IMG/VR virus record: IMGVR_UViG_3300046170_000278
Coordinates: 1-39,089 of that record
Reading direction: 5' to 3' (one strand)
Source: a virus
DNA length: 39,089 nt
Both the position numbers and the translations under genes were made by a program. The notes beneath the pieces are model-generated. The model was given only the letters and a program-made list of their open reading frames with translations. It did not search any database and was not told the DNA's origin. Numbering within the stretch: the stretch's first letter is position 1; each line of letters starts with the position of its first letter. Positions 4,877 through 38,968 of this stretch are shown one piece after another.

Positions 4877-5144
4877 AATGACAGATGGCATATCAATGCA
4901 AGAGTGGGAGGAGGCAAAGCACGACATGGTTAACAACCCGCCGCACTACAACAACGGGCAGATTGAGTGCATCGTGTATTTGAGAGATAACCTGGGGGCA
5001 GGTTTCAGCTATTACTGCGAAGGCAACGTGAAGAAGTACCTACACCGTTGGCGACACAAAGGCCAAGCGGTGCAGGACTTAGAAAAGGCTCAGTGGTATC
5101 TAGCCAAACTCATAGAGAGTCAATCGCTGCCACAACCTGACTAG
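4866..5144 (+). CDS. DUF3310 (SaV-like) protein
   Basis: A 92-residue protein with the DUF3310 hallmark: NNPPHYNNGQIECIVYL at the N-terminal side, then GNVKKYLHRWRHKGQAVQDLEKAQWYL. This family is widespread in phages and is often found near replication or nucleotide metabolism genes; its function is unknown to me. The start at ATG 4866 was chosen over the longer reading (4809) because GGAG lies at 4856-4859, six bases upstream, and because the longer version would overlap the HTH gene heavily. The last 35 bases overlap the convergent integrase gene, an unusual tail-to-tail overlap. Confidence 0.88.
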   Translation: MKRRMTDGISMQEWEEAKHDMVNNPPHYNNGQIECIVYLRDNLGAGFSYYCEGNVKKYLHRWRHKGQAVQDLEKAQWYLAKLIESQSLPQPD

Positions 5145-6087: not shown

Positions 6088-6107
6088 TTGGTACACCCTT
6101 TGGTACA
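6087..6107. repeat. Two direct TTTGGTACA repeats before the integrase gene
   Basis: TTTGGTACA occurs at 6087-6095 and again at 6099-6107, a 12-base period, just upstream of and touching the integrase start. Spaced direct repeats like these are typical of arm-type integrase or excisionase binding sites or of a small operator, but no function can be assigned from sequence alone. Confidence 0.4.
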
Positions 6108-6118
6108 GTTTGAGTGTT

Positions 6119-6198
6119 AACTTACGTTATAAACCGTGTGTTGACAACGGTTTTAACGCTTTTTAATCAATAGCTTAGTGATCGTAAGTTATTGATTA
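6119..6198. other. Inverted-repeat cluster upstream of int, possible attP/regulatory region
   Basis: Within the 190-base gap between the integrase and the late operon end I see several nested inverted repeats. AACTTACG (6119-6126) pairs with CGTAAGTT (6183-6190). AACCGT (6132-6137) pairs with ACGGTT (6147-6152) and surrounds the palindrome GTTGACAAC (6140-6148). TAATCAATA (6164-6172) pairs with TATTGATTA (6190-6198). The region is AT-rich. An attP with integrase and IHF sites normally lies next to int, so this is the best candidate, but no tRNA-like core was recognised. Confidence 0.4.
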
Positions 6199-11282: not shown

Positions 11283-11294
11283 TACTTTTCCTCT

Positions 11295-12686
11295 TTAAGA
11301 GCCTCCGAATCCGAAGTTGCGGCTCTTAGAACTTCCGGTGCTGCTTGAGTTGGCACTGGACAAGTTGTTAGGCGCTCCAACGATCTGGTTGTAGAAGTTC
11401 AACGAGTTGTAAGGTGCCATGCCTTGACGGAACTGCTGGTTTAGAAGCTGCTGCTCGAAGTCCCTGCCGTACTGCCCACTTGCAAGTTGTTGACCCACGC
11501 CAGTGTTGTACATGTTTGCTCCTGCTTGCATGTCGCTGACACCTTGAGCACCAAGTCGCGCAGCCAAGCTGGCACCAAACTGCTGGTTTTGCTGGTTGGT
11601 GTTGAATGCGTTCTGACCGATGCCAGCGCCAAACTGTCGCGCTTGGTTGTACTGACCCGCGTTAAACTGTCCAGCTTGCTGCTGCCTGCCAAGGTTTGAC
11701 TCAAGCTGCGATGCACCTATGCCGTAACCTTGGCTGAGAAGCGCATTCTGCGCCCCCGCGTTGTACTGGTTAGCGCCTTGCGCGAAACCGGCATTGGTAC
11801 GCATTGAGTCCTGCATGAAGTTGGCATTGGCTTGGTTTGCGCCCTGTTGAAAGCCAGCATTGGCTTGATTTGCTTGCTGCTGAAATCCAGCGTTTTGAGA
11901 TGCTCGACCTGCCTCTATGCCAAGGGCTTGGTTGTAGGCGTTGCCTCTCATGTTAGCCGCAACATCAGCGGAGCGATCATTAGCGCCACGAGTGGCAATA
12001 GCGTCCATCACAGCGCGCCGGCTTGATCCGCTGTTACCGGATGCAGCAGCGTTAGACGCGCTGGCGGTTAGCTGGTTCTCGTTTAAGTTTCGAGTTATGT
12101 CCCGCGTGGCTGAGTTAATCTGTCCCTGTAGCACATCATTGTTGATGTAGTTGCTGAGGTTGTCTTGGTTGAAGCCTGCGTTGGTGGCGGCGTTCATGCC
12201 AGCCGCGTTCATTGATGCGCTGCCCATCGCCGCTGGGTTCATTGTCGCCGCGTTCCCAGCCATCTCGTTTGCCATGCCAGAGTTGACGCCAGATCCTTGC
12301 GCTGGGCCGAAACCTGAAACGCCTCCAGCGTATCGGTTGCCTGCGCCAAAGGCAGCACGCACACCTCCGGCTGGCCCTCCCATCATCGCCGCGTTACTGA
12401 AATTCAACGCGGAGCCAGAACCGCCAGCCAGAGCAGAGCCAGACCCCATGAGACCCGCGCCAGCACCGGCCTGCATATTCCCTCCCATGTACTGGTTTTG
12501 AAGTGCGCCCGCTAGGTTGGGGTTGATACCTGCAACGCCCTCAACCGGCATACCTTGATTGTTAAGCTGCTGCGCTTGGTTCATCAAATCACGACGAAAC
12601 GGCTGTTGAGTTGGATCAACATATGTGTTCGATGAACTGTTGGAGCTGCTTTTTGATTTGCTGCTTCCGAATGAAAATAAACCCAT
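11295..12686 (-). CDS. Ala/Asn/Gln/Gly-rich repetitive virion protein
   Basis: A 463-residue late protein with a Ser-rich N-terminus (SKSKSSSNSSSN) and very biased composition. Residues about 75-180 are Ala/Gly/Met/Asn-rich. Residues about 255-320 carry a repeat of roughly 11 residues built on NAGFQQGANQA, repeated about five times. The end is again Ser-rich (SSANSSSTGSSKSRN). No catalytic motif is visible. It may be an internal virion or tail protein forming a long helical or amyloid-like Gln/Asn assembly. The repeat makes the plus strand look open in other frames, but these are shadows. Confidence 0.72.
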   Translation of the reverse strand: MGLFSFGSSKSKSSSNSSSNTYVDPTQQPFRRDLMNQAQQLNNQGMPVEGVAGINPNLAGALQNQYMGGNMQAGAGAGLMGSGSALAGGSGSALNFSNAAMMGGPAGGVRAAFGAGNRYAGGVSGFGPAQGSGVNSGMANEMAGNAATMNPAAMGSASMNAAGMNAATNAGFNQDNLSNYINNDVLQGQINSATRDITRNLNENQLTASASNAAASGNSGSSRRAVMDAIATRGANDRSADVAANMRGNAYNQALGIEAGRASQNAGFQQQANQANAGFQQGANQANANFMQDSMRTNAGFAQGANQYNAGAQNALLSQGYGIGASQLESNLGRQQQAGQFNAGQYNQARQFGAGIGQNAFNTNQQNQQFGASLAARLGAQGVSDMQAGANMYNTGVGQQLASGQYGRDFEQQLLNQQFRQGMAPYNSLNFYNQIVGAPNNLSSANSSSTGSSKSRNFGFGGS

Positions 12687-19967: not shown

Positions 19968-22424
19968 TTAAATACCTACTAGTGTTGTTTGGGATCTGCC
20001 GGAAACGACAAAAAAGGTTCCAGAAGCTTGGAGAGAGAAAAAGTCTGATCTGTTTTGAGCGCCGAATAGCGTTGGGCCAAGGACTATGGTGGCTGCGCGT
20101 TTTGAAACTGTTGTCACATTTGCTGGAAGCAAAACCGACTGACCAGCGCGATTAGTAATTTGATTGATAACGTGCGTTGTGGATCGCCCAAAGACGCTTA
20201 AAACACCCGCATCTGCGTAGACTGCTGCGGAATCTTTGTTCAAAACCGAAGACCCAGACCTGTTAAAAACAGCGGTTATCCCAGTTATGAGAGACCTGCC
20301 GATGATCGAAAGAGAATTAGTGGCTGTTCCGGTTCCGGTTCCGGTTCCTGCTGGGCCTTGTATACCTTGAGCGCCTTGTAAACCTTGTAAACCTTGTAAA
20401 CCTTGCGGCCCCGCTGGGCCAGTTGCTCCGTCAGCGCCGTCTTGACCGTCTTGCCCCGCTGGCCCCGTGGCCCCGGTGGCCCCCCGCACGCCTTGTTGGC
20501 CTTGCGGCCCCGTTGCTCCAGTGGCTCCAGTGGCTCCAGTGGCTCCAGTGGCTCCGTCTTCTCCCGCCACGCCTTGCGGCCCTTGAGGGCCTGTCGGGCC
20601 TGTTGGCCCAGCGACTGTCGAATCTTCGCCGTCTGCTCCGGCTGGGCCTTGTATACCTTGAGGGCCTTGGGGGCCAGTAGGCCCTGCGACTGTCGAATCT
20701 GCCCCGTCTGCCCCGTCTGCTCCGGCTGGGCCTTGTATACCTTGAGGGCCTTGGGGGCCAGCGGGCCCTGCGACTGTCGAATCTTCGCCGTCTGCTCCGT
20801 CTGCTCCGGCTGGGCCTTGTATACCTTGCGGCCCTTGAGGGCCTGTCGGGCCTGTTGGCCCAGCGACTGTCGAATCTTCGCCGTCTGCTCCGTCTGCTCC
20901 GGCTGGGCCTTGAATTCCCTGTGGGCCTTGCGGCCCAGCGGGCCCCTGAACGCCTTGGGGGCCAGCGACTGTCGAATCTTCGCCGTCTGCTCCGGCTGGG
21001 CCTTGCGGCCCCGTTGCTCCAGTTGCTCCGGTTGCTCCCTGCGGCCCTGCGACTGTCGAATCTGCTCCGTCTGCTCCGGCTGGGCCTTGCGGCCCCGTTG
21101 CTCCAGTTGCTCCGGTTGCTCCCTGCGGCCCCGCGACTGTTGAGTCTGCGCCGTCTGCTCCGGCTGGGCCTTGCGGCCCCGTTGCTCCAGTTGCTCCGGT
21201 TGCTCCCTGCGGCCCCGCGACTGTCGAGTCTGCTCCGGCTGGGCCTTGAATTCCCTGTGGGCCTTGCGGCCCAGCGGGGCCGGTTGCTCCGTCTTGGCCG
21301 TCCTCTCCGGCTGGGCCTTGAGGGCCTGTGGCTCCAGCAGCACCCGGGGTTCCTTGAAGTCCCGCTGGCCCCGCCGCTCCAGTTTGGCCCGTTGAACCCT
21401 GCGCTCCGGTGTCGCCTTGCACGCCTTGCGGCCCTTGCGGCCCCGTTGCGCCTTGTGGCCCTTGAGGGCCGGTCAACGCAGTCAATTGCGAGGTCGTAAA
21501 ATCTGAATACTCGAAAGCTGGCCCTGCTGGCCCTGTCACGCCTATCGGGCCTTGAATACCTTGCGGCCCAGCGACAGTTGAATCCGCACCCGCTGGGCCA
21601 GTAGCCCCCGTTTCGCCCTGTGGGCCTGTCAACGCTGTTAGCTGTTCGCTAGTGAAATCCGAATATTGAAAATCAGCCCCATGCGAACCTTGTACGCCTT
21701 GTGGCCCTTGAGGGCCTGTCGGGCCTGCTGGCCCTGCGACTGTAGAGTCTGCGCCAGTAGCGCCGGTTAATCCTTGCGGCCCTTGCGGCCCCGTCTGTCC
21801 CGTTGGGCCTGTGAGCGCAGTTAGCTGGCTGGAGGTGAAATCTGCGTAGGTAAATGCGATTCCCTGCGGCCCCGTTGCGCCTTGTGGCCCTTGAGGGCCT
21901 GTCGGGCCTGTTGGCCCAGCAACAGTTGAATCCGCTCCAGTTGCTCCTGTTGCGCCCTGTGGGCCGGTTAAACCCTGCGGCCCTTGCGCCCCAGTAGATC
22001 CTGTGTCACCTCGTGGGACGGTTAAAACGCCGGTTTCGACGTTATATGATGCGGATGAACCCGCCGCGCCAGTGGATATTGTTAGATCCGTTATTTCGCT
22101 GGCAGAGCTTGCCGCTGCTGCGGCAGAAGCAGCACTGTTAGTTTCTGAGGTTTCAGAATCTGCCTTAGCTGACTCGGAGGCTGCTTGCGCTAACTGGGCG
22201 GCGACCTTTGCTGCCTCTGCGGCAACCTTCGCGGCTTCCGCTGCGTTTTTGCTGCCAAGAGCGTCAGCGGAGTGCGCGTCTGTCGTTGTCTGATCAGGGC
22301 TTCCTTGAAAAAAACCACCGGCAGTGTCCGTTTGCGTCAGAGCATCTTCCGCGATAGTTCCTTCAGTCGCATCCTCCGATCCGACTTGCGTAGCCGCTGG
22401 GTTATTTTGGAAAAAACCAGCCAT
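19968..22424 (-). CDS. Collagen-like tail fibre protein
   Basis: An 818-residue fibre. Residues about 1-125 hold a duplicated short motif (GFFQNNP / GFFQGSP) and an Ala-rich helical part ([17 protein letters not shown]). A junction ([16 protein letters not shown]) then leads into about 520 residues of Gly-X-Y triplets (GPQGPQG, GATGATG, GPAGADG). The early collagen part is interrupted three times by a related insert, FxYxDFTxxQLTALTG. The final 110 residues are non-collagenous ([20 protein letters not shown] and onward) and probably trimerise the fibre or bind the receptor. Collagen-like triple-helical segments are known in phage fibres. The plus-strand open frames in this stretch are shadows of the repeat. 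Confidence 0.92.
20335..22015 (-). repeat. Gly-X-Y coding repeat tract
   Basis: This is the nine-base-based repeat DNA encoding the collagen-like shaft. Long near-identical blocks recur (for example the segments around 21000-21240 and 20640-20900), each encoding a GADSTVAGP or GEDSTVAGP linker followed by GPQG/GATG triplets. The block structure shows growth by unequal exchange or slippage, so length variation between isolates is expected. Confidence 0.8.
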
Positions 22425-25724: not shown

Positions 25725-27814
25725 TAGCCGATACTCACATTGCGGTTCTGCGTCTTCTCAAGCATCAACTCAGCTTCGTCCATCGCCATCTGGTGCTTCA
25801 TCTTCTCTGCGTCCATGAGCAGGCGAGAATCTTCCGTCTCTTCTTGATGCTCTTGCTTGTCACGCTCTATGACGCTGCGGTTCTGTTCCTTCAAGATGTC
25901 TAGCTCTAGCTGGCCCTCTTGAACACTGACCTGCCGTTGCAGCATCTCCGCTTGGAACTCAATCTGCTCCATTTGCATCTGCTCTTGGCGCTGCGCCTCT
26001 TCTTGCTGCTGTTGCTGTTGTTGCTGCTGCATCTGCTGGAACTCTGGCGAGTTCGGATCTGCCAGATACGCACCCGCGTCCTTGATGTTTAGAAGCTCAA
26101 AGGCTCTACTGATCATCGCGTGTCGCTGCTGTTGGCCGTACAGGCCACCTAGCGTTGGGTCTTGAGGGTTAGAAGTGAACTGAGTGTCCAAGCTCAACAG
26201 CATTTGAGCTTCCTTAGCCTGCTCATCAGGCGTCAGCGCAACCGCAACAGTCATCTCAGTACGATCACCAAGGAAGGCGGGGTTCACAGGCATGAACTGG
26301 CCGTCTAGCTGTAGCAGCTTCTCTTCGTTCTCGTACTCCACAGCAAGCCGATACAGGTCGTGCATCAAAGGCTTTAGGAAGTTCTCAGCCAAGTTGCGCG
26401 CCATAATCATGATTCGGCGGTTACTGGCGTTCATGAACGTGTTAATAAGATCGCTAGAGTTCTGCTTGCTGATCGCAGTCGAGTCCATGCCCTTGCTCAT
26501 ACGACTTGAGCCAGAACGCGCTTCCTTCTCCTGCTCAAAGTTCTCAATGGCCGTATACACGTTGCCGTTAAGCTGCGGAGTAGGTAGTGGTCGCACCACG
26601 TTCTCAGGGTTTGGTGAGTTCACGTCAATCACCGCACCGACGCGATTGTCCAACAGGTCGCGTGGGTTCTTAACCAACGAAAGGTTGGCAACCCAACGAC
26701 TTGTTGTTGTTAAGAACAAATGATCGACCACGCCACGCTTCAAAGATGACTGCGTCTTCTGCAAGTCGCAGAGAACGTCAGCAAGGCTCATGCCGTAAAA
26801 GCGGTGCGGTAGCGGGAACGGGCAGAAGCTGCGGAACGGCATCTCGCTGACCATCTCAACGTCTAACATCACTCGACGGCTGTGGATGACTTTGTAATAC
26901 ACGCACTCGTTCATCTCTGCGTCGTGCTTCTTAATATATGACTCGTACAGCGTGACGTACTCTCTGTCCCTGGAGTCGTTTATGCCAGTTGAGTCTTTGC
27001 GGAAGCTGTCTATAGAGTCTCTTCCCAGCGAACCGTCTTCTTGCAGCATGTCCTCTTCATCAAGACGATCCACAATAGACTGATCAAACCCTTCTGACAG
27101 CAACTCGCCACGGGTTCTAGCCATGCGGTGAGAACAGAAGTCACTGCTCTCGATGTCTTTAGCCCGTGGGCTGATCAAGAAGTCTTCTGGCTCTACCGTC
27201 TCAACACACACCTTGCTGGTGTTGATGCGCTTGTGAGCCACGCCGGAGATAGACATCTGCGAATACTCAACGCCTGACGCCTCGTCAACGACAGCAATCA
27301 TCTCTTCCGCTATCTCAACAGGGGTCATAGACGGGTCAGACATCATCACGTTGAACTCAGCCTCGCTAATGCCTTCAAACTCCATCGTTTCGTAGCGGTA
27401 ATCGTTCTTCCAGTACCGCTTCACAATGCCGGTCTTAGCAACCAGTGCGTCGTGGATAACTGACGATAAGATGCGTTGCCCGTCGTTCTGACGGTAGAAG
27501 TTGTAGTTAACCCACGCGGTAGCCATGCGTGCGCCCATCACATCCTCTGGGGTCTGCGCCTCGAAACGGCATATGTTCTTGTCCGCGCTGAATGTTTCCA
27601 GCAGCAGAGCCTTGACCCCCTCTACCGCATCGAACACGTCCATAGAGACGTGCTGGCTGCGCCCACGAATCTCGTTACCCATAGGCTCACCGTAGTAATA
27701 CCGATGGCCTTTATCCCTTTGCTCACCAACTTCGCTGTTCGCGTAGGTGTCTGCGGAGTCAATGTTCTGCTCAAGCGTACTGAGCAGTTCGTTTTCATCA
27801 ATAGTCGTAATCAT
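25724..27814 (-). CDS. Portal protein (P22-like)
   Basis: A protein of about 696 residues forming the dodecameric DNA channel at the capsid vertex. Features of the P22-like portal family are visible: the N-terminal DTYANSEVGEQRDKGHRYYY and VKALLLETFSADKNICRFEA, the core MSLADVLCDLQKTQSSLKRG and SSDLINTFMNASNRRIMIMA, and a long C-terminal coiled coil. That coiled coil includes a Gln-rich run (FQQMQQQQQQQQQ). The longest frame starts at TTG 27874 and overlaps terminase by 77 bases. ATG 27814 gives a 17-base overlap and is preferred, although its AGGAG lies about 12 bases away. A P22-like portal usually goes with headful packaging, in line with the circular assembly. Confidence 0.9.
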   Translation of the reverse strand: MITTIDENELLSTLEQNIDSADTYANSEVGEQRDKGHRYYYGEPMGNEIRGRSQHVSMDVFDAVEGVKALLLETFSADKNICRFEAQTPEDVMGARMATAWVNYNFYRQNDGQRILSSVIHDALVAKTGIVKRYWKNDYRYETMEFEGISEAEFNVMMSDPSMTPVEIAEEMIAVVDEASGVEYSQMSISGVAHKRINTSKVCVETVEPEDFLISPRAKDIESSDFCSHRMARTRGELLSEGFDQSIVDRLDEEDMLQEDGSLGRDSIDSFRKDSTGINDSRDREYVTLYESYIKKHDAEMNECVYYKVIHSRRVMLDVEMVSEMPFRSFCPFPLPHRFYGMSLADVLCDLQKTQSSLKRGVVDHLFLTTTSRWVANLSLVKNPRDLLDNRVGAVIDVNSPNPENVVRPLPTPQLNGNVYTAIENFEQEKEARSGSSRMSKGMDSTAISKQNSSDLINTFMNASNRRIMIMARNLAENFLKPLMHDLYRLAVEYENEEKLLQLDGQFMPVNPAFLGDRTEMTVAVALTPDEQAKEAQMLLSLDTQFTSNPQDPTLGGLYGQQQRHAMISRAFELLNIKDAGAYLADPNSPEFQQMQQQQQQQQQEEAQRQEQMQMEQIEFQAEMLQRQVSVQEGQLELDILKEQNRSVIERDKQEHQEETEDSRLLMDAEKMKHQMAMDEAELMLEKTQNRNVSIG

Positions 27815-29288
27815 GGCTTGTGTAAGCTCCTGTTCGTGTGCCGACGTTCTCACGCTCTGCTCGATTTTGACCAAAACGGGTCACGCTTATTGCTGAATAG
27901 CGTGTCGCGTCCATCAGGTCATCAAACTCTTTGTGAATCTTGCCTTTCTTGCGGTGATACCTTCTAAATTCTTCAAACCAAGGTAACAAGTTGTTGAAAA
28001 CCTTCAATCTTCCCGTGCGAAACCGCTCTAACATCTCCATCAAGGCGGGCTCGACGTAGTTTGTGCCGTCTGGGTTGGTAAATTTGCCGATCATCAGCAC
28101 CCCAGCCTCTAAATACATCTCAGCCAAGGTCTTTCCGCTGCCTTTCTCAGTCGAATCACCGTCATGCGGGTAAATAACCGGAATATCCTTGCCCCTGGAC
28201 TTGATTACCGCCGCGTGTATCGCCGGAACCTCGTCAGCCTTCTTATAAACGTCGTAAACGTAGATCGTGTCTGTGTCCGCGTTGTACGCAGTCCACACAA
28301 CGGTGGTGGGGTGAGTGATACCAAAGTCAATCGCAGCCAGTTTCTTGTAGTGCGGCGGTATCTCAAACGGTTCGCACTTCACAGCCTCTTCCGCTATCGG
28401 GAACACCATGCCTTCGCCCAGTACAGGTATGCCCTTGCTTCGCATATCCCTCTGGTACTCAGGTATAGCAGCCAGTAACTGCTCCTTCGTCTCCGCATCT
28501 AGGTGCTGCGCGTCCTCCCATGTCGCATTTGCGAGGTGCTGACCCTTGGCTCGGTTGTCCATGAACTGGCTGACAAGCTCAGTCACGCCATTTTCCGGCG
28601 TGAACGTCATCACCACATAGCCGCCCTTGCCGTCGTTGCCAGTGGCTGTACGGGTTAAGCACTGCGGGTAGATCGTCGCGTCTACAGGCTCTTCGTCAAT
28701 CCAGATAAAATCTTGGCTTGACCCCATCAAGACGTGCTGGCCCTGCGTGTACGACTTGAAGCTCACAGTGCTGGTGTTGCCAGTGGTATGTCTTACCGCC
28801 ACATCCCTTGGTAGCCTTGGTGTGCCCATAGCAGGAGTCACTTGGTACACCAGCTTTTGCGGAATCAATCCCGATCCGTCGAACTTGCCGTCGCCAAGGT
28901 AGGCACCAAATAGCTCCTTGACCAACACATCGCGTAGCTGCTCACCGGAGACACCCAGGCACCACAGGCTCACAGGCCGATTAAACTGAACACCTTCCCA
29001 CCATTCTGGATATTCGCCTGTGAGGTGGAACGCAACCTCCAACGCCATGGATGCCGTCTTACCTACCCTGTTCGCAGCCATCAATAGCCGTTGTTTGTTG
29101 TCCTTGCCAGATTTGTAGAATTCGGCTTGCCAGGGGTACGGCTTGAAAAACTTCATACGGTTTTCGCGCCTGTGCTGCTTTACCAGTTCAATCGCTTTCG
29201 CCAGTTCTTCCGCTTTCTCTTTTTGGGCCTCTGATAATTCAGGAGTCCCTTTTTTGCGAACCGCTTTTTGCGAAGTCACTTCTGCCAC
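27798..29288 (-). CDS. terL: Terminase large subunit
   Basis: A 496-residue packaging motor and nuclease. The ATPase part has a Walker A-type loop (A71-A-N-R-V-G-K77-T78) and Walker B FIWIDEEP with D198-E199-E200. The RNase H-like nuclease part begins with D321 in LAAIDFGITHPT, continues with D376/D378 in YPHDGD, and has a final acidic pair in KEFDDLMDATRYS. Both domains are complete. GTG 29288 is the start. The upstream 195 bases to the terminase small subunit gene hold no convincing gene, unlike the otherwise tightly packed late operon. Confidence 0.95.
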   Translation of the reverse strand: MAEVTSQKAVRKKGTPELSEAQKEKAEELAKAIELVKQHRRENRMKFFKPYPWQAEFYKSGKDNKQRLLMAANRVGKTASMALEVAFHLTGEYPEWWEGVQFNRPVSLWCLGVSGEQLRDVLVKELFGAYLGDGKFDGSGLIPQKLVYQVTPAMGTPRLPRDVAVRHTTGNTSTVSFKSYTQGQHVLMGSSQDFIWIDEEPVDATIYPQCLTRTATGNDGKGGYVVMTFTPENGVTELVSQFMDNRAKGQHLANATWEDAQHLDAETKEQLLAAIPEYQRDMRSKGIPVLGEGMVFPIAEEAVKCEPFEIPPHYKKLAAIDFGITHPTTVVWTAYNADTDTIYVYDVYKKADEVPAIHAAVIKSRGKDIPVIYPHDGDSTEKGSGKTLAEMYLEAGVLMIGKFTNPDGTNYVEPALMEMLERFRTGRLKVFNNLLPWFEEFRRYHRKKGKIHKEFDDLMDATRYSAISVTRFGQNRAERENVGTRTGAYTSHDYDY

Positions 29289-29952: not shown

Positions 29953-29968
29953 TTTGCATATTTGCAAA
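29953..29968. promoter_or_regulatory. Inverted repeat TTTGCA-TATT-TGCAAA
   Basis: A perfect six-base inverted repeat with a four-base centre, lying between the start of the late operon (29876) and the cassette promoter (29973-30000). A TGCAAAC copy also occurs near 29923-29929, and a TTTGCAA copy overlaps the divergent promoters near 37757-37763. It may be the binding site of a second regulator, perhaps the Cro/YdaS-like protein at 37424 or an activator of the late operon; function inferred only. Confidence 0.4.
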
Positions 29969-29972
29969 CTTA

Positions 29973-30000
29973 TCGACAACCGATGGTTGCATCGTATACT
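29973..30000 (+). promoter_or_regulatory. Sigma70-type promoter of the plus-strand cassette
   Basis: -35 TCGACA (29973-29978, five of six matches), a 16-base spacer, and -10 TATACT (29995-30000, five of six). It points to the gene at 30045, whose AAGGA ribosome-binding sequence is at 30031-30035. An operator-like palindrome fills the spacer. It is the clearest promoter in the window by eye. Confidence 0.65.
29976..29990. promoter_or_regulatory. Operator-like palindrome C (ACAAC-N5-GTTGC)
   Basis: CGACAAC-cgatg-GTTG lies between the -35 and -10 elements of the cassette promoter. It has the same arms and the same five-base spacing as the pair before the repressor gene. Bound repressor would directly block RNA polymerase. 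It implies that the cassette at 30045-32298 is silent in lysogeny and used in lytic growth. Confidence 0.62.
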
Positions 30001-30044
30001 TGTGGTTGATAAGATCACACACACATTAACAAGGACGTACACAC

Positions 30045-30251
30045 ATGAAAGATTACATTTACGGCGCTGCCAGCATTTCCTCGCCTTTTCTTTTGCTTTG
30101 GGCGCTTTTCGCGGGAATGCACAGCAGCAACGAATCGCTGAGTTTTGTTTGCGCGTTAACGTTTATTCTCGGCTGGCCGTTGATCGGGTGCATGCCTATA
30201 GCCACCACACTTCTGATCGATCAAATAGAAGCAATGCGGGGGGTTCGATAA
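30045..30251 (+). CDS. Small membrane protein, two TM segments
   Basis: A 68-residue hydrophobic protein with two predicted membrane helices (ISSPFLLLWALFAGM and VCALTFILGWPLIGCMPIATTLL) and a short charged C-terminus. First gene of the accessory cassette, with AAGGA nine bases upstream of the ATG and a strong promoter. The next gene is another membrane protein coupled by TAATG, so the two may form a pair acting at the inner membrane, for example in superinfection exclusion or lysis timing. This is inference; no family recognised. Confidence 0.75.
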   Translation: MKDYIYGAASISSPFLLLWALFAGMHSSNESLSFVCALTFILGWPLIGCMPIATTLLIDQIEAMRGVR

Positions 30252-30427
30252 TGAAAAACGCTATTTTCGCCACAACGTGGCTCGCAATTACCGCGCTCCT
30301 TTTGATGGTCGCTATTGCTGGGGGTGCTACGCCTTTCGCTTTCACATTCGCTGCAACGATCAGCGCACTTTCTGCCGTCGTCAGTTTTGGCGGTTGCTTC
30401 GTAATCAAATTTTTGGGGGGTAAGTAA
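30251..30427 (+). CDS. Small membrane protein, two TM segments
   Basis: A 58-residue product starting MKNAIFATTWLAITALLLMV. It has two hydrophobic helices (residues about 5-25 and 28-52) separated by a short PFAFTF turn, and ends FLGGK. The ATG overlaps the stop of the preceding gene (TAATG), which is why 30251 is chosen although a longer frame is open upstream from 29954. No family is recognised. It is probably a partner of the gene before it. Confidence 0.7.
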   Translation: MKNAIFATTWLAITALLLMVAIAGGATPFAFTFAATISALSAVVSFGGCFVIKFLGGK

Positions 30428-30429
30428 CA

Positions 30430-31113
30430 ATGCACTATCAATTAGTCAAAAAATCAAGCAACGCCAAAATCGGGCCGATACCAGCAACCAATAGCGCACG
30501 CGCAACATGTCCGCCAGCGTGCCCGTTAGCAGGTGCCGGTGGGTGCTATGCCGAGGCGGGTTTTCATACTCGGCTGAATTGGGACAAGCTCGACGCGGGT
30601 GAGCGCGGCAAAGAATGGCGCGAATTCGTGGCAGATATCGCGGCGCTGCCCGACGGCACGTTATGGCGGCACAATGTGAGCGGTGACCTGCCCCCTATTG
30701 CACCCGACGAATTGCACGAAACCAAGATTGCCGAATTGGTCGCGGCTAATAGAGGCAAGCGCGGGTTTACCTATACCCACTACCCAATGGGCCGCAAAAA
30801 TTCGCAAATCGTCCGCAAGGCGAACGCCAGCGGGTTCACGATCAACGCCAGCGCAAACACTGAGGCGCAAGCCGTAGGCTATGCGAAGCGCAACCTGCCA
30901 ACGGTGGCAATCATCTCAGCCGAGCGGCACGGCAACGATTGGCGCGGGTTTGAGCGCGGCGGCGTTAAATTCGTACAGTGCCCAGCGGAATATAAAGAAG
31001 GCACAACATGCCAATCGTGCAAACTTTGTAGCCATTCCAATCGAAAAACAATTGTAGGCTTCACAGTTCACGGTACGCGCGCAAAAAGCGCGGACATCAT
31101 CGCAAGGGGGTAA
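30430..31113 (+). CDS. Cys-rich DUF7227-like phage protein (possible radical-SAM relative)
   Basis: A 227-residue protein of a family common in phages and plasmids. The N-terminal cluster TCPPACPLAGAGGCYAEAG (Cys spaced C-x3-C-x7-C) is followed by an alpha/beta region suggestive of a TIM barrel (LWRHNVSGDLPP; GFTYTHYP; FTINASANT; VAIISAE). A C-terminal cluster follows: VQCPAEYKEG and TCQSCKLC, then RKTIVGFTVHG. The two Cys groups suggest one or two metal or iron-sulphur sites. The layout recalls DUF5131/Gp37-type proteins related to radical SAM enzymes, but the classic CxxxCxxC is absent. The biochemical role is unknown. The ATG is two bases after the previous stop, so it is in the cassette. 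Confidence 0.78.
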   Translation: MHYQLVKKSSNAKIGPIPATNSARATCPPACPLAGAGGCYAEAGFHTRLNWDKLDAGERGKEWREFVADIAALPDGTLWRHNVSGDLPPIAPDELHETKIAELVAANRGKRGFTYTHYPMGRKNSQIVRKANASGFTINASANTEAQAVGYAKRNLPTVAIISAERHGNDWRGFERGGVKFVQCPAEYKEGTTCQSCKLCSHSNRKTIVGFTVHGTRAKSADIIARG

Positions 31114-31116
31114 TTG

Positions 31117-31281
31117 ATGGATTGGTACACTGTTTGGCTGCGGGAAGATTATCCCGAATGGGAAGGCGCGGAATGGTTTCCTTCCGATATAGAAGGCACG
31201 CACGACTACTGCGTTTCTCAAATTCGGATCGCGTCCCTTGATCAACACTATTTTGTGCGGGTGGTGTCGAATGATGAATAG
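31117..31281 (+). CDS. Small acidic hypothetical protein
   Basis: A 54-residue protein, MDWYTVWLREDYPEWEGAEW at the N-terminus and QHYFVRVVSNDE at the C-terminus, rich in Trp, Tyr and acidic residues and probably a small beta domain. AAGGGGG lies just upstream of the ATG and the preceding gene ends at 31113, so it fills the operon without a gap. Its end overlaps the next gene by 11 bases. No family recognised; it could be an inhibitor-type small protein. Confidence 0.65.
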   Translation: MDWYTVWLREDYPEWEGAEWFPSDIEGTHDYCVSQIRIASLDQHYFVRVVSNDE

Positions 31282-31426
31282 CACCGAACGGCGGCTGCAA
31301 CGCCGCGCACAAGAACGACGGCGGCGCGCCCTGCGCCGCTTCTTAAATGATTCCCTTCTGATCGTTCCAACCATGGCCCTTTATCTGGGCCTTGTTTTCG
31401 TTTTTATCTTGGAGTTGAGCAAATAG
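31271..31426 (+). CDS. Arg-rich small protein with C-terminal TM
   Basis: A 51-residue product beginning MMNSTERRLQRRAQERRRRA, with a very basic amphipathic N-terminal half followed by one membrane helix (LIVPTMALYLGLVFVFIL). This 'positive-inside' tail-anchored layout places the basic part in the cytoplasm, where it may contact nucleic acid or another protein. The start at 31271 or 31274 (two adjacent ATG codons) overlaps the previous gene; a longer upstream reading from 31238 is less likely. An 87-base gap follows. Confidence 0.6.
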   Translation: MMNSTERRLQRRAQERRRRALRRFLNDSLLIVPTMALYLGLVFVFILELSK

Positions 31427-31513
31427 CCGAAACGCGCTGAGGCGCGTCGTGCTGGGTTTGGTTGCCCAGTGCCTGACGATGGCAGACCACCACGACACAC
31501 AACGGAGGTTCCA

Positions 31514-31894
31514 ATGATGGAATTCGACACTTTGACACTTACACACAAAGAACGGGTGTTCATCACCCAGTATTTTGAGACGGCGCTGTGGGCGGACGAA
31601 TCCGAGCATCTGCCAATAGAGGCAATTGCTGGAGAATGTCTGCGCGAGGGCGTTATTGACGCGCTTTGTTTTTATTCTCGCGCTGAGGCTTACCTAAGCG
31701 TTGATAACTACACGGACGCGGCGCACACGTTTTACCTTGTTCGGCAAGGCCACGGGGTGGCGTTCTCAGACAATACCCTTTACACGGATTTTTCAGCGGA
31801 CCGACTGCAAGAAATCGCGGAAAGTTTCGCCCCTGTCGATTATTTTTTAGATGATGGCCGATTGCTCTCTGATCGGGCGGAGGTTGTCGCATGA
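31514..31894 (+). CDS. Conserved phage hypothetical protein
   Basis: A 126-residue acidic protein. The segment AAHTFYLVRQGHGVAFSDN, followed by DRLQEIAESFAPVDYFLDD, fits a pattern frequent in phage and plasmid hypothetical proteins ('xxHDFWLTRNGHGxGFWDR..GxxLTxxAxxxG..DLYxGDD'); function unknown. An excellent ribosome-binding sequence, CGGAGG, precedes ATG 31514, so the longer reading from 31469 is rejected. The 3' end overlaps the next gene by four bases (ATGA). Confidence 0.75.
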   Translation: MMEFDTLTLTHKERVFITQYFETALWADESEHLPIEAIAGECLREGVIDALCFYSRAEAYLSVDNYTDAAHTFYLVRQGHGVAFSDNTLYTDFSADRLQEIAESFAPVDYFLDDGRLLSDRAEVVA

Positions 31895-32298
31895 AAACTC
31901 AAAAACTATTACCGCCAGTTTACAAAAAACTGACCAAAACCATGATCGAAAAAGGCAACCCTGATTGTTGGGGAGGACTGGCGACTTTTGCGCGGCTGTT
32001 TGGCGTGGACTTTGACTCGCTCGAAAACGGGCAGCGCGTCGAGGTTCCGTTAGTCTTCACCGATGGTAGCAAAAGCGTTATCCGATTTTATCGGGTGACG
32101 GGTAAGGGTGGACGCAAGGATAAGCGTTACAGCATCCCAGCGGCAGACTTACGCGCACAGGCCAGCGTAGGCGACACAATCGCCTTTTCGTTTGTGATCG
32201 GCGCGGAAGGCCGCGCTATGCTATTGGCTAACGTATCGCGTCAAAGCGAGCATTTCGGCCTTACAAGCGACGATTTGGACGTTTCTGCGCTCGTTTGA
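31891..32298 (+). CDS. Hypothetical protein, last gene of the cassette
   Basis: A 135-residue alpha/beta protein of unknown family. The N-terminus is basic (KLLPPVYKKLTKTMIEKG). The middle has beta strands (VEVPLVFTDGSKSVIRFYRV) and a basic loop (TGKGGRKDKRY). The C-terminal part (AADLRAQASVGDTIAFSFVI) could be a small beta-barrel. Coupled to the preceding gene (ATGA) and followed within about 25 bases by a strong terminator, so it ends the transcription unit. A DNA-binding role is possible but not shown. Confidence 0.7.
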   Translation: MKTQKLLPPVYKKLTKTMIEKGNPDCWGGLATFARLFGVDFDSLENGQRVEVPLVFTDGSKSVIRFYRVTGKGGRKDKRYSIPAADLRAQASVGDTIAFSFVIGAEGRAMLLANVSRQSEHFGLTSDDLDVSALV

Positions 32299-32302
32299 GG
32301 GG

Positions 32303-32643
32303 GGCACAGGCTTGAGCGGTTTAGGCACGGGTTGGTTTTTCCCAACCTGTGCCTTTTTTTTGCTTATGAATCAAGCACTTACGACAAAAGGCACAGGGGC
32401 ACGGGTGGCACGGGTTGTTTTCAGGTTCGCTGGGGGGCAGCGTGCGCCCCCTGCGCGTGTGGCCAGCGGGCACGGTGGAACGGATAAACTCTATTCTTTA
32501 TATCTCTCCCCTTAGAATAAAGAGAATAAACCTGTGCCACCCGTGCCACCCCGCGCAAAGCCGCAACCCATAAGGGATTTTTAGGCACAGGGTGCTCAAA
32601 ACCAACCCGTGCCCTGCCCGTGCCTTTTGGCTCAACCCGTGCC
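32303..32643. repeat. Array of GGCACRGG repeats in both orientations, candidate origin or nucleation site
   Basis: GGCACRGG occurs on the plus strand at 32303, 32324, 32390, 32398, 32407 and 32584, with a 7/8 copy at 32469. On the minus strand (CCYGTGCC) it occurs at 32346, 32531, 32540, 32606, 32617 and 32636. Several copies extend to GGCACGGGTTG / CAACCCGTGCC. Two tandem copies at 32398-32414 form a 17-base inverted repeat, with one mismatch, with 32531-32547. The two arms surround an AT-rich centre (32486-32530) that has its own TATTCT/AGAATA symmetry. Apart from the first two copies' use in the terminator, nothing coding is seen. Iterons flanking an AT-rich core suggest a replication origin; partition or structural roles are alternatives. 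Confidence 0.6.
32324..32361 (+). terminator. Strong intrinsic terminator of the plus-strand cassette
   Basis: GGCACGGGTTGG (32324-32335), a TTTTT loop, then the matching arm CCAACCTGTGCC (32342-32353; 12 pairs with one G-U), followed by eight T residues (32354-32361). It stands 25 bases after the last gene of the cassette. The two arms are themselves members of the GGCACRGG repeat family. Confidence 0.88.
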
Positions 32644-32848
32644 CGCGGTCACGGCGCAGAGCTGCACGACCTGATTCGAGCGATCCACCCCCTTTTAGGC
32701 TCATACCCCAATGGGGGTCGAGATTTGAGCTTTCCACATTTTGTCTTGCGGATTTTTTGGATGTTTTTAAAAACTTGGCAAAAAAAAGCCCCTCTGATGA
32801 GAGGGGCTTGGGGGTGGTGGGTGGTCGAAAGCGAGAGAGATCACCTCC
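32362..32848. other. Intergenic region between convergent operons
   Basis: About 490 bases without a credible gene. Besides the GGCACRGG array it holds a GGGGGC/GCCCCC hairpin (32433-32451), an ACCCC-AAT-GGGGGT inverted repeat (about 32704-32717) and a perfect palindrome GTTTTTAAAAAC (32763-32774). It ends with the minus-strand terminator. The open frames across it are short, in low-complexity DNA, and lack ribosome-binding sequences. Confidence 0.6.
32780..32809 (-). terminator. Strong intrinsic terminator of the minus-strand early operon
   Basis: On the minus strand AAGCCCCTCT (32809-32800), loop CATC, AGAGGGGCTT (32795-32786), continuing into T residues (to 32780). Ten perfect pairs. It lies about 40 bases downstream of the stop at 32849, closing the operon that starts at 37696. 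Confidence 0.88.
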
Positions 32849-33237: not shown

Positions 33238-33397
33238 TGCACACCTCGCCAATGTTTAAGTAGTCGGTGTGAGCGCCGTCTGCGAGACGGGCGCAGTACG
33301 CGGCTTCGGACGCGAGTGCGTCTTGGTAGTCTGCGTCGGAGGCGGTGGCCCACAACGCTGCAAAGAGAAGAGCGCAGGCTAAGGGTGTCAGTTTCAT
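33224..33397 (-). CDS. Small secreted or membrane-anchored protein
   Basis: A 57-residue gene: MKLTPLACALLFAALWATAS is a clear signal-peptide-like start (two positive-region residues, hydrophobic core, small residues at the cut), followed by about 37 mostly acidic residues with two Cys (AYCARLADGAHTDYLNIGEV). The ATG overlaps the upstream stop (ATGA), strong evidence that it is translated. A different frame of the same stretch gives an Arg-rich 65-residue shadow, which is rejected. An exported protein in an early operon suggests action in the periplasm, such as exclusion of further phages; function is inferred. Confidence 0.65.
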   Translation of the reverse strand: MKLTPLACALLFAALWATASDADYQDALASEAAYCARLADGAHTDYLNIGEVCNDRH

Positions 33398-33660
33398 CCG
33401 GTATTCTCCTCAAAGCCTTCCCAGCGTTCACGGAAAAGGTTTTTGACTTTGGTCACGCTGCTGGCTGAGATGCCTAGCTTGCGTGCGATCTGTTTCGGGC
33501 TGTGCCCTTTACGGCTATCAGCCACAATGGTGTCAACGACCTGTTCGTCTTGATCCAGACGGGTTCTGGTCGATTTTCCTTTGGGCCTTGTGCCGGTAAA
33601 CATGCGCGAGAGTCGGCCATCAATGACCACCCTCGTTGCTTGGTAGAACATATCACTCAT
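33394..33660 (-). CDS. HTH DNA-binding protein
   Basis: An 88-residue protein whose second half is a helix-turn-helix: VADSRKGHSPKQIARKLGIS, then SSVTKVKNLFRERW. The N-terminal half is basic (GTRPKGKSTRTRLDQDEQ). The fold resembles resolvase/transposase-type or small regulator HTH modules. It sits near the end of the minus early operon and could control late genes; no late-gene activator is otherwise recognised in this genome. Coupled to the next gene by ATGA. Confidence 0.75.
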   Translation of the reverse strand: MSDMFYQATRVVIDGRLSRMFTGTRPKGKSTRTRLDQDEQVVDTIVADSRKGHSPKQIARKLGISASSVTKVKNLFRERWEGFEENTG

Positions 33661-34422: not shown

Positions 34423-34508
34423 GTTGTCATCCCTCCTTGGATGGTGTTGTTGTTGTGTGCGCTTTCTTGTTAGCGCAGGAGGGATACTCAGTTATGTATG
34501 TTTACTTG

Positions 34509-34985
34509 TCAACAATTTTTATCAACTATGTTTTGACACCACCAAAACAGGTCGTGCTCTTCCATGTTGTGCTTCATAAGGTTGACGCGCAGGCACACTA
34601 GCTGCACGTTTCGAGGGCTGAACAGATAACCTTTGTCTTGGTCGATTCGGTCAAGAGACACGTTCATGTCTTTGCCCTTTCGGCCCTTGCCGTCCTTTGC
34701 CGCTTGCATCCGCACACCGGAAAGCGCGCAGCGCCCGCCTTGCTCTTCCCATATCTGCATCACGCGGTCAATGTCGATGTCCCATTCGAGACCACGCTTC
34801 TTGGCACCGTGCTTTGCCTTGCTGACGGTGTTGCGGAGGTAGTCCCTGGGGCTGTTGTTTTGTGTTTTTTGCTCTGCGATCCGGCGGCACGCTCGGCACG
34901 TTGGTTCAATAGATCCATCTGGCCGTTCATAGAACAGATGGATTTGCTTGTCCTCCCCACAGACAACGCAAGTCTTTGATTTCAT
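34509..34985 (-). CDS. HNH-type endonuclease-like protein
   Basis: A 158-residue protein. The N-terminal zinc ribbon (KTCVVCGEDKQIHLF and PTCRACRRIAEQK: C-x2-C ... C-x2-C) and the C-terminal HNH-like core (RCALSGVRMQ, VSLDRIDQDKGY, NVQLVCLRVN) are visible. In this subgroup the usual first His is replaced within the 'SxDRIDxxxGY' motif. It could be a stand-alone homing or nicking enzyme, or a host-DNA degrading nuclease. It lies 12 bases after the primase-helicase gene in the same operon. Confidence 0.82.
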   Translation of the reverse strand: MKSKTCVVCGEDKQIHLFYERPDGSIEPTCRACRRIAEQKTQNNSPRDYLRNTVSKAKHGAKKRGLEWDIDIDRVMQIWEEQGGRCALSGVRMQAAKDGKGRKGKDMNVSLDRIDQDKGYLFSPRNVQLVCLRVNLMKHNMEEHDLFWWCQNIVDKNC

Positions 34986-34997
34986 TATGTAATTATA

Positions 34998-37262
34998 CTA
35001 GAAAGGCACGTCATCGTCGCCCCAGTTACTGGGGTCTAACGGATCAAGCCGGTCATCTTCTGTCCACTCGACACTTATACCTAAGTACGCCTCAAAGTTA
35101 TCCCGCGCCTGCCTCAAAGCCTCTAACTTCACCGCCCTGAAACGTGCTCCACCCGCACGCTTGTGAACCTCTTCCTCATAAATGCCTGTCTTGCGTAGCG
35201 CCTTCCAGAAACTGTTCTCTCGCACAACGGTTTCGTACCTGCCTTTCACGCTCGAAGCATAGATGGCGTAAAGCTGTGTCTTGCTGACCTCTTCGCCAAA
35301 CTGGAGCGACTCGCCCGCGATCTTGTGTTCACGGAACTCTGCGTTTTGCAGGCTCGACAGCAGCCACGCATCGACTCCGCTCAGGTTCTCTAGCTTCTGC
35401 TCGTCAAGCGCAGCCGTCTGTGGAGCCTTGCGGACATTCACCGATGACAGGTCAAAATGCTTCAGGTAGTACAGCAGCGCAGAGCCACCACCGTTATGAA
35501 ACCAAGAGTCGAGCGCCTCGAAGTATTTACTGTCTTCCTTGCGCTTGGCGCTGATGTCGAACACGGCAAACCGCCGCTCGTCTAGCGTTGCAGGCACAAC
35601 GAAGTCATCGTTACTGGTGAACACAATGCGTGTGTAGTTTGGTGCCATGTAGCCGTCCACGCCTTTCTTCTCTACAAAGATTTGGCTGGCGGTGAGCAAA
35701 TCCTTCAGCGCCGATTCTGCTGCCTTGGCACCGGCCCAGTAAGCCTCTTCGCCGCACAGGAGTAGCGTCTCTTGCAGGTGCTTGTTGAAGTTGCCGGTGA
35801 TGTGCTCTGCCTTACTGGCACTGGTGAAGTGGCTTTTGACAAGCCAGCCCAGCAGTTCGGCAAACTTCGTCTTGCCTGTGCCCTTCAAGCCTCTAAGCAC
35901 CAGACCGATACCGATTTTAACTTGCGGCTGCTGAACCATCTGAGCGCACCACGCGATGATCCAGTTCGCGTTTGCGACGTTTCCGTCCGCGATTACGTCC
36001 GTTATAAAGTCGATCCATGGCTGTACATCTCCCTGCACTGGCTCGACTGACCAGCCGCGCCACAGGTTATATTGATTGATCGACTCACCGTCAGGGCTGA
36101 ACGCCAGACCGGCTGGGTAAGTCTTGCGGTCTTCGTGCTCTAGCCACATATCAACCAGGTTCACGAGCCGTGGCGTCTTGCCCTCATAGCTCATAACTCG
36201 TTGATTTTGAAACTCTTTTCTTACGTCCTCTAAGCCGTACAGGACTGTGCGGTCTTGAAATATGTCATCTCTAACCACCCTTGCGTGGCCTTCGACCAGC
36301 ACCAGCGACCAGTTCTCCAGCATATGGGGTAAAACCCCATCTACCTTTTCCCGCATATCTTCTTCGGCTTTTGCTGTATGGGACAGCGAGGCTACATATG
36401 CCAGTGTGACAGGCACTTTGCCTTTACTGTCGAAACTGTCCCAACGCTTTTCGCACTCGCCCTCTTTGAACTTCTCACCGTCAGCAGACCACTCTGCCCA
36501 AAGCTGGAGACCCTCATCCGCGCCATCCCAGTGGTGGTGCAAGGCCATCCCCACCCTGAACCACTGGTCATGCTCTGTGTCTGGATCGACTGAGGCCAGC
36601 ATGGTTCGCACATCGTCCATGTCAGCCTCGAACTTGGGGCGCAGTGCCAACAGTTCGTCGTACTCACTGGCACTGCTGTCGCTGCCTTTACGGCTTTCCT
36701 GCCAACCGGCCTCATGTGCTTTACGCTCAAAGAACGCGACGAATTTACGCGCCATGTCTTCCGTCAGTTCCGGCAATTCCGCGTGGTTCACACTGTCGAG
36801 CGAGGCGTATGACTTGAGCCATCGGTAGGGCTTCTGCGTGTCGGGGTGTATCCCGAAAGCCACAAACTGCTGACCATCACCTAGCACCTCAACGGCGTGC
36901 TTGTTACCTTCCTGGCACTCAAACTCAGCCGACTTGATCTTCTTACGCGGGTCTCCGCGATAGGCGAACAGCATCTTCGGCTGGTTGCCGATCCGCGCTG
37001 CGGCGATGCCGACGTTCTCTTCCAGCCAAGCAGCCAGTTTTTTCACCATGCTGACGTTGCGGCAGTCTACGTCCACCGCGATGGTGTTTTTGCACAGCAC
37101 ACCGATGCCGCTGTCAGGCCACTCTGCTGACCACTGCTCTAAGTCTTCGTGCGTAGCTTCAGCTTTCTGCCATTCGTCTATGCACGGGTACTTCTTGCCC
37201 CTTTTTATGGGGATGATTTGATACCCACGGTCAATCAACCGTGCGCCTACTTCTTGCAACAT
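34998..37262 (-). CDS. Primase-polymerase / SF3 helicase (replication initiator)
   Basis: A 754-residue multi-domain replication protein. Residues about 1-170 are an archaeo-eukaryotic primase/polymerase (prim-pol) domain with the metal-binding D64-V-D66 (IAVDVDCRN) and the later VEVLGDGQQFVAFG element. Residues about 215-285 form a PriCT-2-like linker (DTEHDQWFRVGMALHHHW). Residues about 445-640 are a superfamily 3-type ATPase with Walker A G461-T-G-K464-T465, Walker B-like LLLCGEEA and sensor IVFTSNDD. The C-terminus is basic. It likely primes and unwinds at the origin, and pairs with the family A polymerase. It is the largest gene of the minus early operon. Confidence 0.9.
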   Translation of the reverse strand: MLQEVGARLIDRGYQIIPIKRGKKYPCIDEWQKAEATHEDLEQWSAEWPDSGIGVLCKNTIAVDVDCRNVSMVKKLAAWLEENVGIAAARIGNQPKMLFAYRGDPRKKIKSAEFECQEGNKHAVEVLGDGQQFVAFGIHPDTQKPYRWLKSYASLDSVNHAELPELTEDMARKFVAFFERKAHEAGWQESRKGSDSSASEYDELLALRPKFEADMDDVRTMLASVDPDTEHDQWFRVGMALHHHWDGADEGLQLWAEWSADGEKFKEGECEKRWDSFDSKGKVPVTLAYVASLSHTAKAEEDMREKVDGVLPHMLENWSLVLVEGHARVVRDDIFQDRTVLYGLEDVRKEFQNQRVMSYEGKTPRLVNLVDMWLEHEDRKTYPAGLAFSPDGESINQYNLWRGWSVEPVQGDVQPWIDFITDVIADGNVANANWIIAWCAQMVQQPQVKIGIGLVLRGLKGTGKTKFAELLGWLVKSHFTSASKAEHITGNFNKHLQETLLLCGEEAYWAGAKAAESALKDLLTASQIFVEKKGVDGYMAPNYTRIVFTSNDDFVVPATLDERRFAVFDISAKRKEDSKYFEALDSWFHNGGGSALLYYLKHFDLSSVNVRKAPQTAALDEQKLENLSGVDAWLLSSLQNAEFREHKIAGESLQFGEEVSKTQLYAIYASSVKGRYETVVRENSFWKALRKTGIYEEEVHKRAGGARFRAVKLEALRQARDNFEAYLGISVEWTEDDRLDPLDPSNWGDDDVPF

Positions 37263-37814: not shown

Positions 37815-38384
37815 GTGAAGCAAACAGAACTGAATCTGGATGAACCGGCTCACGCTGAACTTAGCGCAAGCTCTGCTCACCGTTGGATCGCGTGTCCTGC
37901 GAGTGTGCAGGCCAGCCGTGGGATGCCTGATAACTCGGGCCAAGCGGCAGAGGAAGGGACGGCAGCGCACGAACTGGCCGAGCAATGCCTCCGCACAGGC
38001 GTAGAGCCTCACGAATACATCGGCAACGAGTTCAACGGGTTCCGCGTCGGTCAGGAGATGGCAAACCTCGTAAAAATGTATACCGACTACTGCCGAAGCC
38101 TGCCGCAAGGCTTCACCTTCGTAGAGCGAAAAGTCGATTACAGCCTGTGGGTGCCTAACGGATGGGGGACGGCTGACTACATCGCTATTAAAGAAGGCGA
38201 GGCGTGGGTCGTTGATCTGAAGTTTGGTCGCGTGCCAGTAAAAGCTGACTGCGATCAGTTGAAATGCTACGCACTAGGCGTGCATTACGAGTTCGGCTTC
38301 GACTCGCAGATTGACACGATACATATGACCATCGTGCAGCCGCGGCTTGGTTCAATTGACACGCACACAATGAGGTGCATATGA
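37815..38384 (+). CDS. DUF2800 Cas4/RecB-like nuclease, N-terminal part (split gene)
   Basis: A 189-residue N-terminal half of a DUF2800 protein, a PD-(D/E)XK nuclease with similarity to RecB/Cas4. Visible: SSAHRWIACPAS with C27, EEGTAAHELAEQ, D121 in GTADYIA, D134-L-K136 in VVDLKFG, and Q148..Y152 in QLKCYALG. In intact members the chain continues through an iron-sulphur C-terminal part. Here it ends at TGA 38382-38384 and the C-terminal part continues one frame away from ATG 38381 (ATGA overlap). It is the first gene of the replication operon. Confidence 0.85.
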   Translation: MKQTELNLDEPAHAELSASSAHRWIACPASVQASRGMPDNSGQAAEEGTAAHELAEQCLRTGVEPHEYIGNEFNGFRVGQEMANLVKMYTDYCRSLPQGFTFVERKVDYSLWVPNGWGTADYIAIKEGEAWVVDLKFGRVPVKADCDQLKCYALGVHYEFGFDSQIDTIHMTIVQPRLGSIDTHTMRCI

Positions 38385-38968
38385 GCCAGATGGGTCTACT
38401 GAACTGGGGCCGCACTGTGCTTGCGCCCGCTGCGGAAGCTGCCCTAAGCGACAACCCTGAGTACAACGCTGGCGAGAGCCAATGCCGCTACTGCAAAGCC
38501 GCTACAACGTGCAAAGCATTATCTGAGCACAACATGGAACTGCTGCAAGCCGCGATAGATGAGCCAATCACACCACCAGAGCCTGAGAAGCTGACGGTTG
38601 AGCAGATAGCAAAGCTGCTGCCAGAGCTTGGTTTGATTAAATCTTGGTGCGACAAGGTTGCGGCCTACGCATCAGAGATAGCGCAGGAAGGTACAGAGAT
38701 AGAAGGCTACAAATTAGTCGAGTCAAGAACAAACAGGCGCTGGTCAGACGATCAGGAAGCGATCCGAGTGATGCAGCGCCTAACAAATGAGCCGGTATAT
38801 GCGGCTAAACCAATTTCGCCAACCCAAGCAATAGGAATGCTGGGAGCGAAATGCGATGACGTGAATGCGCTCATCGTCAAACCGGCAGGGAAGCCGACCC
38901 TAGTGCCCGAATCTGATAAGAGACAGGCGTTAGGAAAACCAGCAGACCTGCTAGATAAATTGGACTGA
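38381..38968 (+). CDS. DUF2800 C-terminal part with Fe-S-type cysteines (split gene)
   Basis: A 195-residue continuation of the DUF2800 protein. The Cys group C35-x2-C38-x5-C44 (QCRYCKAATTC) together with C27 of the preceding gene reproduces the one-plus-three cysteine pattern of Cas4/AddB iron-sulphur nucleases. The rest (EKLTVEQIAKLLPELGLIKS, and EGTEIEGYKLVESRTNRRW) is the family's C-terminal helical part. GAGG lies five bases upstream of ATG 38381, so separate translation by coupling is likely. A somewhat longer reading from GTG 38375 exists. It ends 14 bases before the DUF2815 gene. Confidence 0.83.
   Translation: MSQMGLLNWGRTVLAPAAEAALSDNPEYNAGESQCRYCKAATTCKALSEHNMELLQAAIDEPITPPEPEKLTVEQIAKLLPELGLIKSWCDKVAAYASEIAQEGTEIEGYKLVESRTNRRWSDDQEAIRVMQRLTNEPVYAAKPISPTQAIGMLGAKCDDVNALIVKPAGKPTLVPESDKRQALGKPADLLDKLD

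Follow-up and report, generated by a model that had tools for sequence, protein, structure and literature searches.

Short repeats of the consensus GGCACRGG crowd the gap between two convergent operons in an uncultured phage, for which the window analysed here, 39,089 bases long, is the whole IMG/VR virus record. This locus raises the question of whether the repeats are the site at which the phage initiates replication of its DNA or serve packaging, integration, partition or transcription termination. To our knowledge, the replication origins of most phages are unknown.

The repeat array and its parts

The features discussed below are as follows.

32303-32643, both strands: complete iteron array, proposed replication origin
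32303-32310, plus strand: iteron GGCACAGG
32324-32331, plus strand: iteron GGCACGGG, left member of an inverted pair with 22 bp spacing
32346-32353, minus strand: iteron GGCACAGG, right member of the inverted pair with 32324-32331
32390-32397, plus strand: iteron GGCACAGG, first of a tandem triple with spacing 8 and 9
32398-32405, plus strand: iteron GGCACGGG, tandem triple, second listed
32407-32414, plus strand: iteron GGCACGGG, tandem triple, third listed
32469-32484, plus strand: degenerate tandem pair GGCACGGT-GGAACGGA, adjoining the core on the left
32483-32530, both strands: AT-rich core, 48 bp, 73% AT, proposed melting site
32531-32538, minus strand: iteron GGCACAGG, inner tandem pair, spacing 9
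32540-32547, minus strand: iteron GGCACGGG, inner tandem pair with 32531-32538
32584-32591, plus strand: iteron GGCACAGG, inverted pair, 22 bp
32606-32613, minus strand: iteron GGCACGGG
32617-32624, minus strand: iteron GGCACGGG
32636-32643, minus strand: iteron GGCACGGG
32323-32354, plus strand: terminator hairpin of the 29954-32298 operon, two iterons followed by a T run, predicted by folding
32786-32809, minus strand: terminator of the initiator operon
34998-37262, minus strand: initiator with Prim-Pol, PriCT-2 and DUF5906 (SF3 helicase) domains and a putative C-terminal winged helix
35127-35291, minus strand: segment encoding the putative winged helix, residues 658-712, which is proposed to read the iterons

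Fourteen exact copies of GGCACRGG are present in the window, where about 3 are expected (mean 3.2 and maximum 8 in the shuffled window), and 12 of them lie within 32303-32643, six on each strand. Together with GGCACGGT at 32469, which has one mismatch, they account for the 13 copies in both orientations counted in an earlier note on this DNA, and the extension of several copies mentioned there corresponds to five exact occurrences of GGCACRGGTTG in the array. Among comparable 8-mers in the window, GGCACRGG forms the top cluster (runners-up 11, 10 and 10), and Markov simulations of 8-mer clustering reached a maximum of 4-6.

The arms at 32398-32416 and 32529-32547 form a 19-nt inverted repeat that is 95% complementary. 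Given this level of identity, 16 of the 17 bases match in the shorter inverted repeat described previously (32398-32414 against 32531-32547), which is real. The earlier picture needs a correction at the inner left tandem pair (GGCACGGT-GGAACGGA, 32469-32484), which is degenerate. Likewise, the array was placed between two terminators; the minus-strand terminator does lie outside it, but the plus-strand one is inside. The hairpin of the latter (-24 kcal/mol, z -5.7) is kept in the alignment of the relatives.

The initiator and the conservation of the array

The Prim-Pol, PriCT-2 and DUF5906 domains found in the product of 34998-37262 agree with its earlier designation as a prim-pol/SF3 helicase. 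This protein matches the C-terminal region of NrS-1 polymerase and PDB 7ola, an entry labelled 'DNA primase' which we take to be the SaPI5 helicase. The profile of the C-termini compared with the PDB gave RFX5 (6e-5), 7ola (3.5e-4) and RFX1 (8e-4). The structural model of the C-terminal part, which is of moderate confidence (pLDDT 64-84 across fragment residues 31-100; pLDDT 40 for the full-length model), has the winged-helix order, and RFX comes first in the VIA-align structural ranking with a middling score (Z 7.3, rmsd 2.9, 69 residues), which supports, rather than proves, the assignment of the C-terminus as an RFX-related winged helix. The array is located 2.35 kb downstream of the initiator gene, with other genes between them.

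The primase-helicase has 13 relatives among viral contigs, and the conservation check proposed in the earlier note came out in favour of the array, which is kept at the same position in all six of these relatives that cover the gap; two additional carriers, L023 and L027, came from a pattern scan. In a seven-sequence alignment of the array region, the motif columns show 97% mean identity (89% invariant), compared to 85% (45% invariant) in the non-motif columns of the array and 76% (21% invariant) in the flanks. The spacing series (19, 11, 22, 44, 9, 124, 9, 8-9, 44, 22, 21) is near-constant in all seven, and the AT core is 48 bp long in each of them, with 71-81% AT in the relatives. An outer unit of the array of ~100 bp is duplicated in three relatives.

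A switch of GC skew, which was also to be looked for, is not seen at the array: cumulative skew tracks gene strand, and a strand-corrected fit of third-position skew did not favour the array site. GC skew, confounded by gene strand, lends no support to an origin.

Several features elsewhere in the window were observed in passing. The family-A DNA polymerase is encoded by two overlapping ORFs (451-891 and 881-2350, with the overlap GTGCGAAATAG), a split that is kept in all ten relatives examined and so does not stem from a sequencing error; the two ORFs may give separate proteins, or a frameshift may be involved. The exonuclease also consists of two overlapping ORFs (37815-38384 and 38375-38968), likewise in L010, L021 and L017, and is a single continuous frame in other relatives. 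The segment 20001-22000, with 60-69% GC and a strong AT skew, lies inside an 818-aa ORF (19968-22424) that probably encodes a repetitive structural protein. Beside the integrase start, 6084-6198 contains a 12-bp direct repeat and a 14-bp inverted repeat, and is a possible attP region.

Arrays of the motif in unrelated phages, and alternative functions

Among the matches listed from pattern scans of viral contigs, most are contigs with repeats on one strand and a minority have two-sided arrays. Two-sided arrays of the same motif occur in at least several unrelated phages with GC contents of 36-66% (L024/L032, 36-39%; L143 and L305/L309, 48-52%; L308, 54%; L251/L237, 60-62%; L082, 65%; L307, 66%), and the outer spacing of the window clade recurs in L143. 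The DUF5906 SF3 helicase (PF19263) was found, again among the matches listed, in 6 of the 10 strict two-sided lineages versus 3 of the 46 controls (Fisher p 4e-4), a comparison in which many records are fragmentary and the controls (one-strand-repeat contigs, which make up most of those from a three-copy scan, many evidently coding) are unlike the array contigs in kind. L024, which comes from a separate scan, is DUF5906-positive as well.

In the PF19263 lineages, the array mostly touches the 3' end of the helicase gene or lies within ~120 bp of it. In particular, the distance from the initiator 3' end to the array start is 7 bp in L082, 15 bp in L308, 82 bp in L305/L309 and ~116 bp in L143; the array overlaps the end of the initiator gene in L251/L237 and is within the last part of this gene in L307. 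The L024 array is located ~4 kb upstream of the initiator gene, between divergent genes. The initiators of these other array phages have either a TOPRIM or D5_N region or PriCT-2, or lack a recognised primase domain; SF3 is common to them, and most score for a C-terminal Pox_D5/RFX.

Arrays are also present in L302, L075 and L046, in the records of which PF19263 was not found. The GGCACRGG array of L302 (5807-5967) starts 10 bp past a TOPRIM/AAA_25 gene; the record gave no match to DUF5906, and the array possibly represents the same motif with another initiator type. In L075, a two-sided GGCACGGG array (11050-11544) surrounds an extended region that contains repeats of CAAACGTG and CAAAAGTG; neither DUF5906 nor Pox_D5 was found in this 17-kb record. 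No GGMACRGG arrays were found in named SF3 phages including AAT-1, 9NA, S1 and Mcat7 (AAT-1 has just weak repeats in the gap 3' of the primase), and BLAST of the window's gap against named phages gave no match. The host search, which consisted of one exact pattern and one protein scan of genome contigs, was empty, and hence no host is identified.

Other functions that the array might have were weighed as well. A partition (centromere-like) site, a copy-control site or an operator array for the small HTH protein encoded nearby (33394-33660) would have a parallel in P4 crr, where iteron sets function beside an origin. Such a role is nevertheless improbable, given that in the majority of the other phages the array adjoins the SF3 gene, and that the AT core and inverted inner pairs suggest melting; as for partition, no partition protein was found among the proteins scanned. 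A cos or pac packaging site, with the repeats bound by terminase, is quite improbable too, although the terminase genes are only ~2.5 kb away (terL, 27798-29288) and some cos regions contain repeated binding sites. Packaging fits poorly because the array phages have differing terminase families, Terminase_6N/6C in the window versus TerL_ATPase/TerL_nuclease in L143, yet share the motif and geometry, and the array goes with the SF3 gene, not with the terminase genes. The tyrosine integrase (5110-6096), also encoded in five relatives, could point to attP with arm-type sites, but lies ~11.5 kb from the array on the circle, whereas an attP is usually next to its integrase gene, and attP is very improbable since no integrase was found in the array-bearing records of L143 (39.4 kb) and L024 (33.6 kb). 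Finally, a role solely as a bidirectional terminator, or as a REP-like repeat separating convergent operons, is hardly credible and was rejected: a strong terminator hairpin does arise from one iteron pair, but this takes up just 2 of the 12 exact copies, such a role would not explain the same-strand tandem copies, the conserved AT core or the exact spacing, and the L024 array sits between divergent genes.

Known origins and a model of initiation

The earlier note knew of no described element with this repeat, but the kind of element is known from SaPI/PICI, P4 and Streptococcus phage Sfi21. An origin of replication is annotated in the Sfi21 record NC_000872 at 34487-34784, where TTAGTTACTTAGTTAC and its inverse flank an AT-rich core. 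As in the window, short tandem repeats (8-bp spacing in Sfi21) are inverted around the core; the Sfi21 origin abuts the 3' end of a DUF5906+Pox_D5 gene, and a Prim-Pol gene is situated just upstream. The differences are in the iteron (TTAGTTAC versus GGCACRGG), in the primase and helicase, which are on separate genes in Sfi21 and fused in the window, and in the location, the Sfi21 origin touching the initiator gene whereas the proposed one of the window is 2.35 kb off. Iterons of the sequence TGTGTTGGGT are arranged likewise 3' of the initiator in Turba and pAN, cultured phages with initiators that share 38-40% identity with that of L082.

In PICI origins, an AT-rich region lies between two iteron sets immediately 3' of the initiator, a layout described as PICI-only (PMC6092414). 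The window resembles SaPI/PICI in the two iteron sets around an AT-rich region and in having its own initiator, a likeness at the level of layout, and differs in the distance of 2.35 kb between proposed origin and initiator gene. Because the major head, tail and terminase genes are present, the window represents a phage and not a PICI. P4 shares iterons of ~8 bp in both orientations, frequently at 9-11 bp spacing, and its alpha protein contains DUF5906 and a C-terminal Pox_D5; however, the P4 iteron (GGTGAACAG) is unlike that of the window, its primase is of the TOPRIM rather than the Prim-Pol type, and ori and crr, the latter adjoining alpha, are annotated as two separate loci. The pRN1 type combines, like the window, an AEP primase, an SF3 helicase and a winged helix, with the pRN1 cis element 3' of the gene, but in place of iterons its origin has a 100-bp stem-loop, and stem-loop use has been proposed for pRN1-type AEP-SF3 proteins (PMC4234260). 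The inverted repeats of the window are iteron pairs, with no single long stem-loop.

Compared with the PICI/Sfi21 type, the window has opposed iteron sets around an AT core, an SF3 (DUF5906) initiator and, with moderate confidence, a C-terminal winged helix in this initiator; the position immediately 3' of the initiator is seen in L082, L308, L305 and L143 but not in the window. The array, its geometry and conservation, the SF3-gene association and the domain homology are established in this analysis. Since the array is conserved, is associated with SF3 genes elsewhere and matches Sfi21 and satellite origins, the iteron-type origin for an SF3 initiator suggested in the earlier note is the best supported reading, and 32303-32643 is very likely the replication origin of this phage. 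The points that count against it are the GC skew, which does not back this site, the distance to the initiator gene in the window, the upstream location in L024 and the three array records without PF19263.

At such an origin, several subunits of the initiator would bind GGCACRGG via the C-terminal winged helix. By analogy with SF3 and satellite origins, the inverted iteron sets, together with the core-side tandem pairs spaced by 8-9 bp, could assemble two opposed helicase rings, and the 48-bp AT-rich core would melt at ring assembly. The rings would unwind outward while the fused Prim-Pol primes, resulting in bidirectional theta replication in which the family-A polymerase and SSB of the phage probably participate. 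The outer iterons, the 22-bp inverted pairs and the duplicated unit of the relatives are probably extra binding sites or are involved in copy control, for which P4 crr is an analogue, and one outer iteron pair is predicted by folding to double as the terminator of the convergent operon.

New here are this proposed origin, an iteron that appears to be common to different primase modules, and the distance of 2.35 kb that separates the proposed origin from its initiator gene. Tentatively, and with somewhat more doubt than confidence, we suggest that the GGMACRGG word and the RFX/Pox_D5-like winged helix form an exchangeable unit across initiators of the Prim-Pol, TOPRIM, D5_N and unrecognised-primase types. 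The reading of the array as an origin assigns one for an entire clade of uncultured phages. The layout, despite its PICI-only description (PMC6092414), is common to satellites and P4 and occurs likewise in a cultured dairy phage and in several unrelated phages, and the window offers an iteron-type counterexample to the stem-loop proposal for AEP-SF3 initiators (PMC4234260). If the unit of word and winged helix is true, the origins of uncultured phages would be predictable from initiator sequence, and such prediction becomes testable.
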